Source of the DNA: Bacteroidia bacterium
GTDB taxonomy: Bacteria > Bacteroidota > Bacteroidia > Flavobacteriales > Flavobacteriaceae
DNA length: 64,000 bases
Assembly (NCBI GenBank): GCA_030427985.1
Contig: JAUIBH010000008.1
Coordinates: 1-64,000 of the forward strand
Direction of reading: 5' to 3'
Within the stretch, counting starts at the first letter, position 1. Every line of letters begins with the position of its first letter. Below the pieces are notes generated by a model. That model had not been told where the DNA came from. It did not search any database and saw nothing but the letters and a program-made list of their open reading frames with translations. This document shows, piece by piece, positions 60,364 to 64,000 of the stretch. The translations under genes were made by a program, and so were the position numbers.

Positions 60364-61089
60364 TTAAAATGAGTTGCCCAATACTTTGCTTTCCAGAATT
60401 TCAGCTTTTGGAAAAAGGATGTTGTTTTCTAAATGGATATGTTCGTGAAGGTCTTCTTCAAATTCCTGAAGGAGTGAAAAGGCAACTCTATAGGTATTAC
60501 AGGCATCCGCTGGAGGAGTGTAATCATTACTGAGTTCAGCAATTTTGCGAAAACGTTCACCCTCATTATCATGCTCCTGCATCATCATTTGAATGGGATT
60601 TTTAATGGTACCAAAATGGGGAGTGGTCTTACTTTCGGTGCCACCAACCATTTTGCGAACCCATGGGAATAGGACCAACTCTTCCTTTTTCATGTGCATG
60701 GCCAAATCTCCGGCAGAAGCATTGAAATGCTCAAAAATATCGAGCAGTTCTGGATGACGTTCTCCGTGTACTTTGCAAAGTTTGGTCAGGTATTGTTTTA
60801 AAATCGGAATTTGTTGCTCCACGTAACGATGGTGCTTCTTTTCAATATAATCGACCAATAGGTCCAAAGGCCAAGTTTTAAAATCGGGCTGGTCATTTTG
60901 GTTTTGGTTCTGGACAGCATCAAGTTCCTGGATCAAGCTTTCCAAGTTCAGGCCATTTTTTTCTACAACTTCTTCTAGGGTTCGATTTCCTTTACAGCAA
61001 AAATCTATTTTATGATTTTTAAAGACTTGGGCAGTGCGATAGTTCTCCGCTACCAACTGTCCGACTGTTTTTTCCATAGTATCATTCAT
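60364..61089 (-). CDS. Iron-sulfur cluster repair di-iron protein (RIC/ScdA/YtfE)
   Basis: 241 aa. The N-terminal domain has the ScdA signature 'VGQLVAENYRTAQVFKNHKIDFCCKGNRTLEE' with two adjacent Cys. The hemerythrin-like domain supplies the di-iron ligands: 'KKHHRYVEQQIPIL', 'HGERHPELLDIF', 'HMKKEELVLFPWV', 'MMQEHDNEGERFR' and 'HEHIHLENNILFPKAE'. It repairs Fe-S clusters damaged by nitric oxide. Its promoter carries a 14-bp palindrome shared with the Rrf2 gene next to it, which fits control by that regulator. ATG at 61077 (second Met) is an alternative start. Confidence 0.95.
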   Translation of the reverse strand: MNDTMEKTVGQLVAENYRTAQVFKNHKIDFCCKGNRTLEEVVEKNGLNLESLIQELDAVQNQNQNDQPDFKTWPLDLLVDYIEKKHHRYVEQQIPILKQYLTKLCKVHGERHPELLDIFEHFNASAGDLAMHMKKEELVLFPWVRKMVGGTESKTTPHFGTIKNPIQMMMQEHDNEGERFRKIAELSNDYTPPADACNTYRVAFSLLQEFEEDLHEHIHLENNILFPKAEILESKVLGNSF

Positions 61090-61122: not shown

Positions 61123-61140
61123 TCGGACAATTTTATCCGA
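61123..61140. promoter_or_regulatory. Palindromic operator upstream of the RIC gene
   Basis: TCGGACAATTTTATCCGA. In minus-strand orientation the core GGATAAAATTGTCC differs at 2 of 14 positions from GGACAAAATTGTCT upstream of the Rrf2 gene. It lies 34-51 bp before the RIC start. Confidence 0.7.
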
Positions 61141-61157
61141 AATAGGTTTAAATTTTT

Positions 61158-61595
61158 TTAGCGTTTTAAATAGGTCAAACCAACCTCTAACCCCATGGCC
61201 AATTCATACAAACTTGTGTTCCTCAGCATTTTACTTAAATCACTACGGATGTCAACAAATTTATCGTGCAAAGGGCAAGGTTTGTCCGCATTACATTCCT
61301 TAAGTCCCAGACCACATCCCTTATAGATATCGTCCCCATCAATGGCCTTTACGATCATGTTCAATTTTACGGACTCCATGTTTTCCCGTTCAATTTCAAA
61401 TCCCCCAGTAGGTCCTTTTACGGAGTGAATGATATTGCTTCTGGAAAGCTGCTGCAAAATTTTGGCCGTGAACGCAATAGGGGAATCAATTTCCTCGGCA
61501 ATCTCATTTACGCTGACACGCCTTCCCTCCATGGATTGAAGTGCAATGTAAACCGATGCGCGTATACCATATTCACAGGCTTTTGAAAACATCAT
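61158..61595 (-). CDS. Rrf2-family transcriptional regulator, probable NsrR-like
   Basis: 145 aa. Winged HTH 'FSKACEYGIRASVYIALQ', 'RVSVNEIAEEIDSPIAFTAKILQQLSRSNIIHSVKGPTGGF', followed by an Fe-S-binding Cys cluster 'CGLGLKECNADKPCPLHDKF' (three Cys as in NsrR/IscR). Such proteins sense nitric oxide or Fe-S status. It sits between the RIC gene and a membrane protein of the nos region and has a matching palindrome upstream of its own start and of RIC. Starts with ATGATG. Confidence 0.94.
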   Translation of the reverse strand: MMFSKACEYGIRASVYIALQSMEGRRVSVNEIAEEIDSPIAFTAKILQQLSRSNIIHSVKGPTGGFEIERENMESVKLNMIVKAIDGDDIYKGCGLGLKECNADKPCPLHDKFVDIRSDLSKMLRNTSLYELAMGLEVGLTYLKR

Positions 61596-61637
61596 AGGGA
61601 ACTTTTAGTAGTACAAAGATAATATTTAAATTAAATA

Positions 61638-61651
61638 GGACAAAATTGTCT
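61638..61651. promoter_or_regulatory. Palindromic operator upstream of the Rrf2 gene
   Basis: GGACAAAATTGTCT, core dyad GACAA-AA-TTGTC, 43-56 bp upstream of the Rrf2 start. Nearly identical to the site at 61125-61138 read on the minus strand; autoregulation inferred. Confidence 0.7.
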
Positions 61652-62968: not shown

Positions 62969-63751
62969 TTAAAAATCTTTTTTCATGGCTTTATATCGTA
63001 ACCCTAATATAGGCAGAACAGTCCACAATAAAAGAATGACCAGTGAAATAAAGAAACCTAGATTGGTGCCAAAGAATTGCTTGAAAATGGCCCCCGTGTA
63101 CCCCAATAAGGCCGAGATGTCCAATTTGAGCAGTATCAAAATCCTGGACAAGTCAATGGGGTTGAGCATGGTGGCCACCAGCGAAAATGTATCCAAGGGA
63201 TATTCCTCAAAAACGATGAGGGACATCAAGAACAGCCCATCGTAAACCACTGCTAAGAAAAGCCAAAGCAAAACCGCATAACCGAACCCTTTTATCTTGT
63301 TTTCATTGGATATGGCTATCACAAAGGATAGTCCCACAAAAATAAAGGTCAAGAAAGCTCCTGTGACCAACAATAAGGAAAAGTCAAAAATAGCATTGCT
63401 CCGCAAAAGTCCGTATAGTACAAATGGAATCCCCAAACCAAGCACCAGGCTTAGGGTCAGTGAACCGGCCACGCCAAAATACTGTCCCATGAAGATGGAA
63501 CTACGCTTTATGGGCTGCGCCAATAGCAGCTCCGTAAATTCTCGGGAATTGTAGTAGTACATCACCCCAAATATGGTTCCTATCAGCGGAATAAGCACAA
63601 TGATCACGTTCATTAAGGTGATTACGGCTTTAGAGACATCGTTGTTCAAAAACAACAGCACAAAACCAAGAGCGAGGTAAAACAAAAAGTAGACATAGCT
63701 CCAACGGCTTCGTATTAGGTCGTAAAAACTGTATTTCAATATTTTAAACAT
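62969..63751 (-). CDS. nosY: NosY-type ABC transporter permease
   Basis: 260 aa, six hydrophobic segments ('YVYFLFYLALGFVLLFL', 'TLMNVIIVLIPLIGTIFGVMYYY', 'GYAVLLWLFLAVVYDGLFL'), with the NosY-like 'SREFTELLLAQPIKRSSIFMGQYFG' and 'ATMLNPIDLSRILILLKLDISALLGYTGA'. It works with the NosF ATPase encoded upstream (8-bp overlap) and with NosD in delivering sulfur or copper for maturation of nitrous oxide reductase. NosZ and NosD would lie beyond the window end, which can be tested only with more sequence. Confidence 0.88.
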   Translation of the reverse strand: MFKILKYSFYDLIRSRWSYVYFLFYLALGFVLLFLNNDVSKAVITLMNVIIVLIPLIGTIFGVMYYYNSREFTELLLAQPIKRSSIFMGQYFGVAGSLTLSLVLGLGIPFVLYGLLRSNAIFDFSLLLVTGAFLTFIFVGLSFVIAISNENKIKGFGYAVLLWLFLAVVYDGLFLMSLIVFEEYPLDTFSLVATMLNPIDLSRILILLKLDISALLGYTGAIFKQFFGTNLGFFISLVILLLWTVLPILGLRYKAMKKDF

Positions 63752-64000
63752 GGCTACCCGTTGTTATGGCCGCAATGGCGTGTTCAAAATTGGTTTGCTC
63801 GGTCTGCTGTAAAAGTTTTTCTATACTCCCTTTAAAATAAATTTCCCCTTCCAATAGATATAAAATCTCATCCGCCATTTCTTCCACAAACTGCATAATG
63901 TGTGAGGTGATCAAAATGGTTTTTCCATTGGCTTTTTCTTTTTGGATCAATTCCTTTAGTCGAATCAAAGCTTTGGGGTCCAAACCAGTCGTAGGTTCAT
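63744..64000 (-). CDS. nosF: NosF-type ABC transporter ATPase, 5' part outside the window
   Basis: The frame is open to the window end. The visible C-terminal part begins with 'EPTTGLDPKALIRLKELI' (Walker B/D-loop, the Asp of 'DEPTTGLDP' is completed by the last bases), then 'GKTILITSHIMQFVEEMAD' with the H-loop His. The TTG at 63983 in the track is internal. Directly overlapping nosY, hence NosF rather than another ABC ATPase; the Walker A and signature motif are outside the window. Confidence 0.85.
   Translation of the reverse strand, partial: EPTTGLDPKALIRLKELIQKEKANGKTILITSHIMQFVEEMADEILYLLEGEIYFKGSIEKLLQQTEQTNFEHAIAAITTGSHV

Follow-up and report, generated by a model that had tools for sequence, protein, structure and literature searches.

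Paired 14-bp palindromes as probable operators of an Rrf2-family regulator of nitric oxide genes in Bacteroidota

In a 64,000-nt stretch of a Flavobacteriaceae genome (hereafter, the window), the gene for an Rrf2-family regulator, denoted here Rrf2A, is flanked by two near-identical 14-bp palindromes, the second of which precedes ric, the gene for a di-iron Fe-S cluster repair protein. We consider it likely that both palindromes are operators of the Rrf2A protein encoded between them and that Rrf2A acts as a nitric oxide (NO)-released repressor of ric and other NO-related genes. The recurrence of such sites before NO-defence genes throughout the phylum makes the palindromes very probable control sites of the adjacent Rrf2 protein, whereas the nature of the effector is argued from the list of targets: the linked genes, namely ric, globin, qNOR and nirK, indicate NO as the signal.

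Results

Two palindromes around rrf2A

The two palindromes, operators 1 and 2 (Table 1), are identical at 12 of 14 positions and imperfect, each matching its own reverse complement at 10 of 14 positions, the AA centre excepted. Operator 1 is separated by 42 nt from the start codon of rrf2A (61595, minus strand) and operator 2 by 35 nt from that of ric (61089, minus strand); the initial annotation of this DNA had placed the shared palindrome correctly. The ric product is a full-length repair protein, and the ORF of 115 aa downstream of it, which adjoins ric in relatives too and has no match in Pfam or NCBIfam, is a possible member of the same operon.

Table 1. Features of the window around rrf2A and the end of the nos cluster
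Feature	Coordinates	Strand	Description	Basis
Membrane-protein-like ORF, 115 aa	59967..60314	minus	downstream of ric	conserved order
ric (scdA/ytfE)	60364..61089	minus	di-iron Fe-S cluster repair protein, 241 aa, full-length	TIGR03652, 253.4 bits (cut-off 204.7)
Operator 2	61125..61138	.	between rrf2A and ric; gene-strand (minus) sequence GGATAAAATTGTCC	exact match
rrf2A	61158..61595	minus	Rrf2-family regulator, 145 aa; Cys94, Cys101, Cys107, His110	PF02082, TIGR00738
Probable -7 element of rrf2A	61614..61621	minus	TATCTTTG (TAnnTTTG), 16 nt from operator 1	sequence and relatives
Operator 1	61638..61651	.	GGACAAAATTGTCT; read on the rrf2A strand, AGACAATTTTGTCC	exact match
Membrane protein, 400 aa	61733..62935	minus	final nos-cluster gene, immediately upstream of rrf2A	conserved order
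nosY-like ABC permease	62969..63751	minus	no Pfam match	named from the gene order nosZ-nosL-nosD-nosF-nosY (extended contig and relatives)
nosF-like ATPase, C-terminal part	63744..63998	minus	cluster runs on to nosZ outside the window	extended contig (L050)

Across the 188 contigs of the assembly (3.63 Mb), GGAYAAAATTGTCY occurs exactly in two places only, the two promoter sites, and few sites lie outside promoters. The relaxed symmetric palindrome RGAYAAWWTTRTCY is found in four places, namely the two operators and two positions within coding frames, and one-mismatch matches elsewhere in the genome also fall nearly all within coding frames. The exceptions are a paralogous rrf2A-ric locus on contig C170 and two intergenic positions (C27:12462 and C157:26561) with no obvious link to NO. 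The C170 copies of rrf2A and ric (85% and about 80% identity, respectively) have kept both operator sites at equivalent places. A separate sequence, GGACATATTTATCC, which many genomes contain irrespective of rrf2A, was rejected as a candidate site: in both cases examined it sits within a murG-like coding sequence.

Within the window, no place other than operators 1 and 2 matches without mismatch, and eight places match with at most two mismatches versus 3.7 expected, a count that chance reaches in 7 of 100 shuffles, so that the window count alone is weak evidence, too weak to decide. This count would be compatible with a chance repeat, a reading that we set beside that of a terminator, RNA hairpin or other structural element. 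Both are, however, already refuted by the phylum-wide conservation of the sites at fixed positions (see below); moreover, the sites also occur upstream of unlinked genes and lack the T-run geometry of a terminator, and we attach practically no weight to these explanations.

The Rrf2A protein

Rrf2A clearly belongs to the Rrf2 superfamily, scoring 85 bits against PF02082 (gathering threshold 30) and 89.1 bits against TIGR00738 (cut-off 73.3), but stays below the cut-offs of the equivalog models for NsrR (NF008240; 35.8 bits, cut-off 182) and IscR (TIGR02010; 58.6 bits, cut-off 207.55). A C-X6-C-X5-C-X2-H motif is invariant in all 81 sequences compared, and its Cys residues (94, 101 and 107) agree with the three conserved Cys that characterize NsrR near residues 90–107. 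This Cys/His cluster region lay outside the patterns used for the search; Glu8 and Cys7 stood inside them, and the conservation of these two residues is therefore biased. The initial description of the protein as NsrR-like with an Fe-S Cys cluster thus holds for the three-Cys motif, whereas the likeness to NsrR is one of analogy, given the low score and an operator unlike the NsrR consensus.

A regulator that owns the palindromes but senses Fe-S status, iron or redox state in the manner of IscR, with ric being induced as a repair enzyme, would fit three observations: the IscR model scores better than the NsrR model, the His positioned after the Cys region in solved IscR structures aligns with His110, and IscR and other Rrf2 proteins are the PDB entries that match Rrf2A best by sequence. 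Yet the targets described below are NO-handling genes, and in the regions read no site stands beside a gene of Fe-S biogenesis. Accordingly, we regard IscR-like sensing as unlikely and prefer NO as the predicted effector of Rrf2A.

Conservation of the operator in the genus and the phylum

A first set comprised 17 rrf2A copies of at least 77% identity from the genus Allomuricauda/Flagellimonas, in which the organism itself is placed by its nearest named relatives. Every copy with a complete upstream region has a site about 42–45 nt upstream, and nearly all copies with ric behind them have a second site. A weight matrix was trained on 31 sites from this genus, with no other taxa included, and an operator was called when the score reached at least 14 within 160 nt upstream of a gene. 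The phylum set consisted of 80 rrf2A relatives (59–89% identity) collected by a scan of GTDB genomes and originating from Flavobacteriia, Cytophagia, Saprospiria and Chitinophagia. Operators were called upstream of rrf2A at 64 of these 80 loci, with the gap to the gene centred on 39–49 nt, and were weak or missing at about 16; the consensus across loci is the 14-bp sequence GGAYAAWTTTGTCC.

Among the test loci (L108–L166, one of which, L111, is still from the genus), an operator precedes rrf2A in 45 of 59 cases versus 3 of 319 control upstream regions, which belong to other genes of the same loci (Fisher P = 4e-42). Of these control matches, one lies before a further rrf2A of Croceitalea (L157) and one before a nirK of Pseudozobellia (L108), so that both look like true members of the regulon. 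This autoregulatory conservation, together with the fact that the sites track rrf2A, supports the earlier suggestion that the repeated dyad points to the operator of the Rrf2 protein. The accompanying proposal of an NO regulon in Flavobacteriia is upheld as regards NO handling (ric, globin, qNOR and nirK), but its range was drawn too narrowly, considering that the loci extend to the three other classes.

Promoter geometry and the second operator

Bacteroidota promoters have a -33/-7 consensus, of which we take TAnnTTTG to be the -7 element. Of 71 aligned rrf2A promoters, 61 carry this motif downstream of the operator, 60 of them at a spacing of 14–19 nt (mode 16–17), and the TTTG at operator positions 8–11 coincides with the -33 element. 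In the promoter-proximal half, G is favoured at position 11 (46 G, 18 A), which completes the TTTG, whereas the symmetric position of the distal half has 28 C and 36 T; the stronger bias of the proximal half (P = 0.002) is what would be expected if one half doubles as a promoter element. Coverage of the -33 element by the operator suggests an autorepressor, and the geometry of the rrf2A promoter as a whole likewise favours repression.

A second operator is found behind rrf2A at 41 of the 80 loci, in 40 of them 17–21 nt past the stop codon, and its position is constant whatever gene comes next, be it ric or a gene for a TDO-like protein, a cupin, qNOR, globin or a CcoN-like protein. The second operators, including the one in the ric promoter, do not show the -33/-7 layout of the rrf2A promoter. 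Loci devoid of a second operator have another conserved element, GATAAAAAGGTcTTAAaaTCt, at the equivalent place, 17–22 nt past the rrf2A stop (about 23 loci, including L117, L120, L124 and L126–L137).

Targets away from the rrf2A locus

The wider regulon was assessed in 71 genomes of the genus, 40 of which carry rrf2A. Globin orthologues, defined by at least 55% identity, are present in 35 of the 71 genomes, 34 of them rrf2A-positive. The 37 genomes with a ric orthologue (at least 57% identity) all carry rrf2A, and a diverged ric of 44–47% identity is found in three genomes lacking it. The globin belongs to the Bac_globin family (PF01152) and, in our reading, is truncated and group-III-like. 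Most of the orthologues are located within the rrf2A-ric operon, whereas those with an upstream region of their own have an operator in 14 of 14 cases, 77–119 nt upstream and with scores of 12.8–21.3, compared to 0 of 15 for paralogous or control globins, which are diverged, derive mostly from rrf2A-less genomes and never score above 4. The globin operator lies between globin and a divergent gene for 5-formyl-THF cyclo-ligase, behind which several genomes carry a qNOR gene; in one genome (G079), qNOR is a site-linked target.

In five rrf2A-positive genomes, nirK is immediately preceded by GGATAACTTTATCT or a closer variant, the nirK sites of the genus being weaker variants of the operator; by contrast, nirK of three rrf2A-less genomes resides inside a nor-nirK operon without a GGATAACTTTATCT-type site. 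Genome-wide, the excess of GGAYAWWWWTRTCY over a reversed-pattern control amounts to +7.2 per rrf2A-positive genome versus +0.85 per rrf2A-negative genome (40 genomes; P = 0.0007). The assignment of ric, globin, qNOR and nirK as NO-detoxification targets was made from the sites only. The genome containing the window lacks nirK and the regulon-type qNOR, and its globin orthologue is a fragment (residues 53–120, 60% identity; G000:C170:14118-14318) adjoining the ligase gene, which keeps the site AGACAAAAATATCC. Consequently, the regulon of this particular organism may be just rrf2A and ric, twice.

Several neighbouring observations concern genes outside this set. A gene for a CcoN-like haem-copper oxidase of ~600 aa is located behind rrf2A in many Bacteroidota (e.g. 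L120:4484-6313 and L148:737-2488) and has perfect operators in three genomes of the genus (L251, L259 and L261). Its HHFVF motif aligns with HHLHY of cbb3 CcoN, so that Phe takes the place of what is presumably the cross-linked active-site Tyr; with this residue replaced, the oxidase is a candidate NO reductase. The same three loci contain, between two operators, an ORF of ~105 aa of no known family (e.g. L259:3712-4120) in a layout that mirrors rrf2A, that is, operator, TATCTTTG, ORF, operator and CcoN-like gene. In a denitrifying member of the genus without rrf2A (G021; L073, L074), other Rrf2 genes lie near a diverged ric and are preceded by AAGACATTTTAGTCTT-like or AAGATATTTTAATCTT-like dyads, perhaps representing a parallel system.

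The nos cluster and a second Rrf2 protein

The membrane protein of 400 aa encoded by the last nos-cluster gene has a HGHSH motif, is conserved and has no relative in Pfam, NCBIfam or PDB. Beyond the window, the contig continues with nosF, nosD, a PNPOx-like gene, nosL, an ORF of 208 aa and nosZ, which encodes a Sec-dependent NosZ (TIGR04246, 866.5 bits). In relatives, the first gene of the nos operon, at a distance of about 9 kb, encodes a cytochrome c; the operon diverges from rrf2B, the gene for a second Rrf2 protein about 38% identical to Rrf2A. The promoter shared by nos and rrf2B contains AGACATTTTTATCC-TTTTT-ATGATTAATATCAT, an Rrf2-like dyad followed after 5 nt by a Crp/Fnr-like dyad, the latter placed, by our estimate, some 41 nt ahead of where nos transcription or translation is expected to start. 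The corresponding promoter of the genome studied here has the weaker AGACATTCTTATCC on contig C26 (G000:C26:1324-1439, L084), which, judging from relatives, presumably adjoins C142. The composite Rrf2-like and Crp/Fnr-like element also precedes a TonB copper-receptor (nosA-like) operon in several genomes.

The initial annotation suggested that the regulon may also take in nos genes beyond the window. Part of the nos cluster (nosF, nosY) lies within the window. An extension of the regulon to nos is weakly supported: the nos site is a variant beside rrf2B, and it is equally present in four genomes without rrf2A (G004, G009, G020 and G023), a persistence which weakens the case for nos belonging to the Rrf2A regulon. 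We therefore assign nos to Rrf2B together with a Crp/Fnr protein; any control of nos by Rrf2A would be a matter of possible cross-talk. The similarity of AGACATTTTTATCC to the operators raises the converse question, namely whether the palindromes around rrf2A could be owned by another factor, such as a Crp/Fnr protein or Rrf2B, whose gene stands at the nos operon head. The palindromes, however, track rrf2A and adjoin it in many lineages without a nearby nos gene, and it is the rrf2B-type site that persists in the four rrf2A-less genomes; ownership by another factor thus appears very improbable, and Rrf2A itself is the favoured owner.

Discussion

The identity of the operator, its link to rrf2A, the target genes and the promoter geometry all emerge from the comparison of genomes, and we infer that Rrf2A binds as a dimer, represses rather than activates and carries an Fe-S cluster, with NO as its effector. 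In the proposed mechanism, an Rrf2A dimer, probably with a Cys3-ligated Fe-S cluster, would bind GGAYAAWTTTGTCC; binding to operator 1, which holds the TTTG of the -33 element, would block RNA polymerase and result in autorepression, while operator 2, at its fixed distance from the rrf2A stop, would control ric independently. Damage of the cluster by NO would then release the protein from DNA, switching on ric and, where present, the genes for the group-III-like truncated globin, 5-formyl-THF cyclo-ligase, the quinol-type NO reductase and nirK.

Such a system would resemble the NsrR regulon of Proteobacteria, Bacillus and Streptomyces as outlined by Rodionov et al. (2005; PMC1274295), in which an Rrf2-family protein with three Cys residues controls ric/dnrN/ytfE, globin-type NO detoxification, norB and nirK. 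The differences are nevertheless considerable. The 14-bp operator of Rrf2A does not fit the NsrR consensus gATGyAT-N5-ATrCATc given in that paper, the passages of which considered here report no NsrR for Bacteroidota; the protein scores far below the NsrR equivalog cut-off; a truncated globin takes the place of the flavohaemoglobin Hmp; and the system combines autoregulation with another operator past the regulator gene. By analogy, Rrf2A may work like NsrR but cannot be equated with it. With IscR, Rrf2A shares the Rrf2 fold, the C-X5/6-C-X5-C-X2-H arrangement, including the His two positions past the last Cys, and autoregulation, but it differs in the score and in that the targets seen in the regions read are NO genes rather than isc/suf. 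Control of dnrN (ric) in Bacteroides fragilis, also a member of the Bacteroidota, is ascribed in PMC1274295 to HcpR, which belongs to the Crp/Fnr rather than the Rrf2 family and recognizes a different site.

The presence of rrf2 genes beside clade II nosZ, the same gene neighbourhood as here, has been noted in marine metagenomes, including Rrf2 sequences of Maribacter, but their role was called hard to predict and no operator, targets or mechanism were given (PMC6264515). Our literature search, which was of incomplete coverage, retrieved no paper that prints the operator motif and none that links Rrf2, Bacteroidota and nitric oxide. Apparently, an NO control system of marine N2O-consuming bacteria has thus gone undescribed so far.

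Bacteroidota with clade II nosZ are widely discussed as sinks of the greenhouse gas N2O, and the literature searched contains no description of how they sense NO and control such genes. In its broadest form, which we put forward tentatively, our reading is that of a phylum-wide NO regulon of Bacteroidota, in which an undescribed Rrf2 repressor, with an operator built around the -33 element, might control ric, truncated globin, nirK, qNOR and the CcoN-like oxidase, which lacks the active-site Tyr and is maybe an unrecognized NO reductase, and would operate beside the gene cluster for N2O reductase in clade II consumers of N2O. The operator and regulator together constitute a testable regulon and a tool for annotating NO-defence genes across the phylum, allowing new members, such as the CcoN-like oxidase, to be found.
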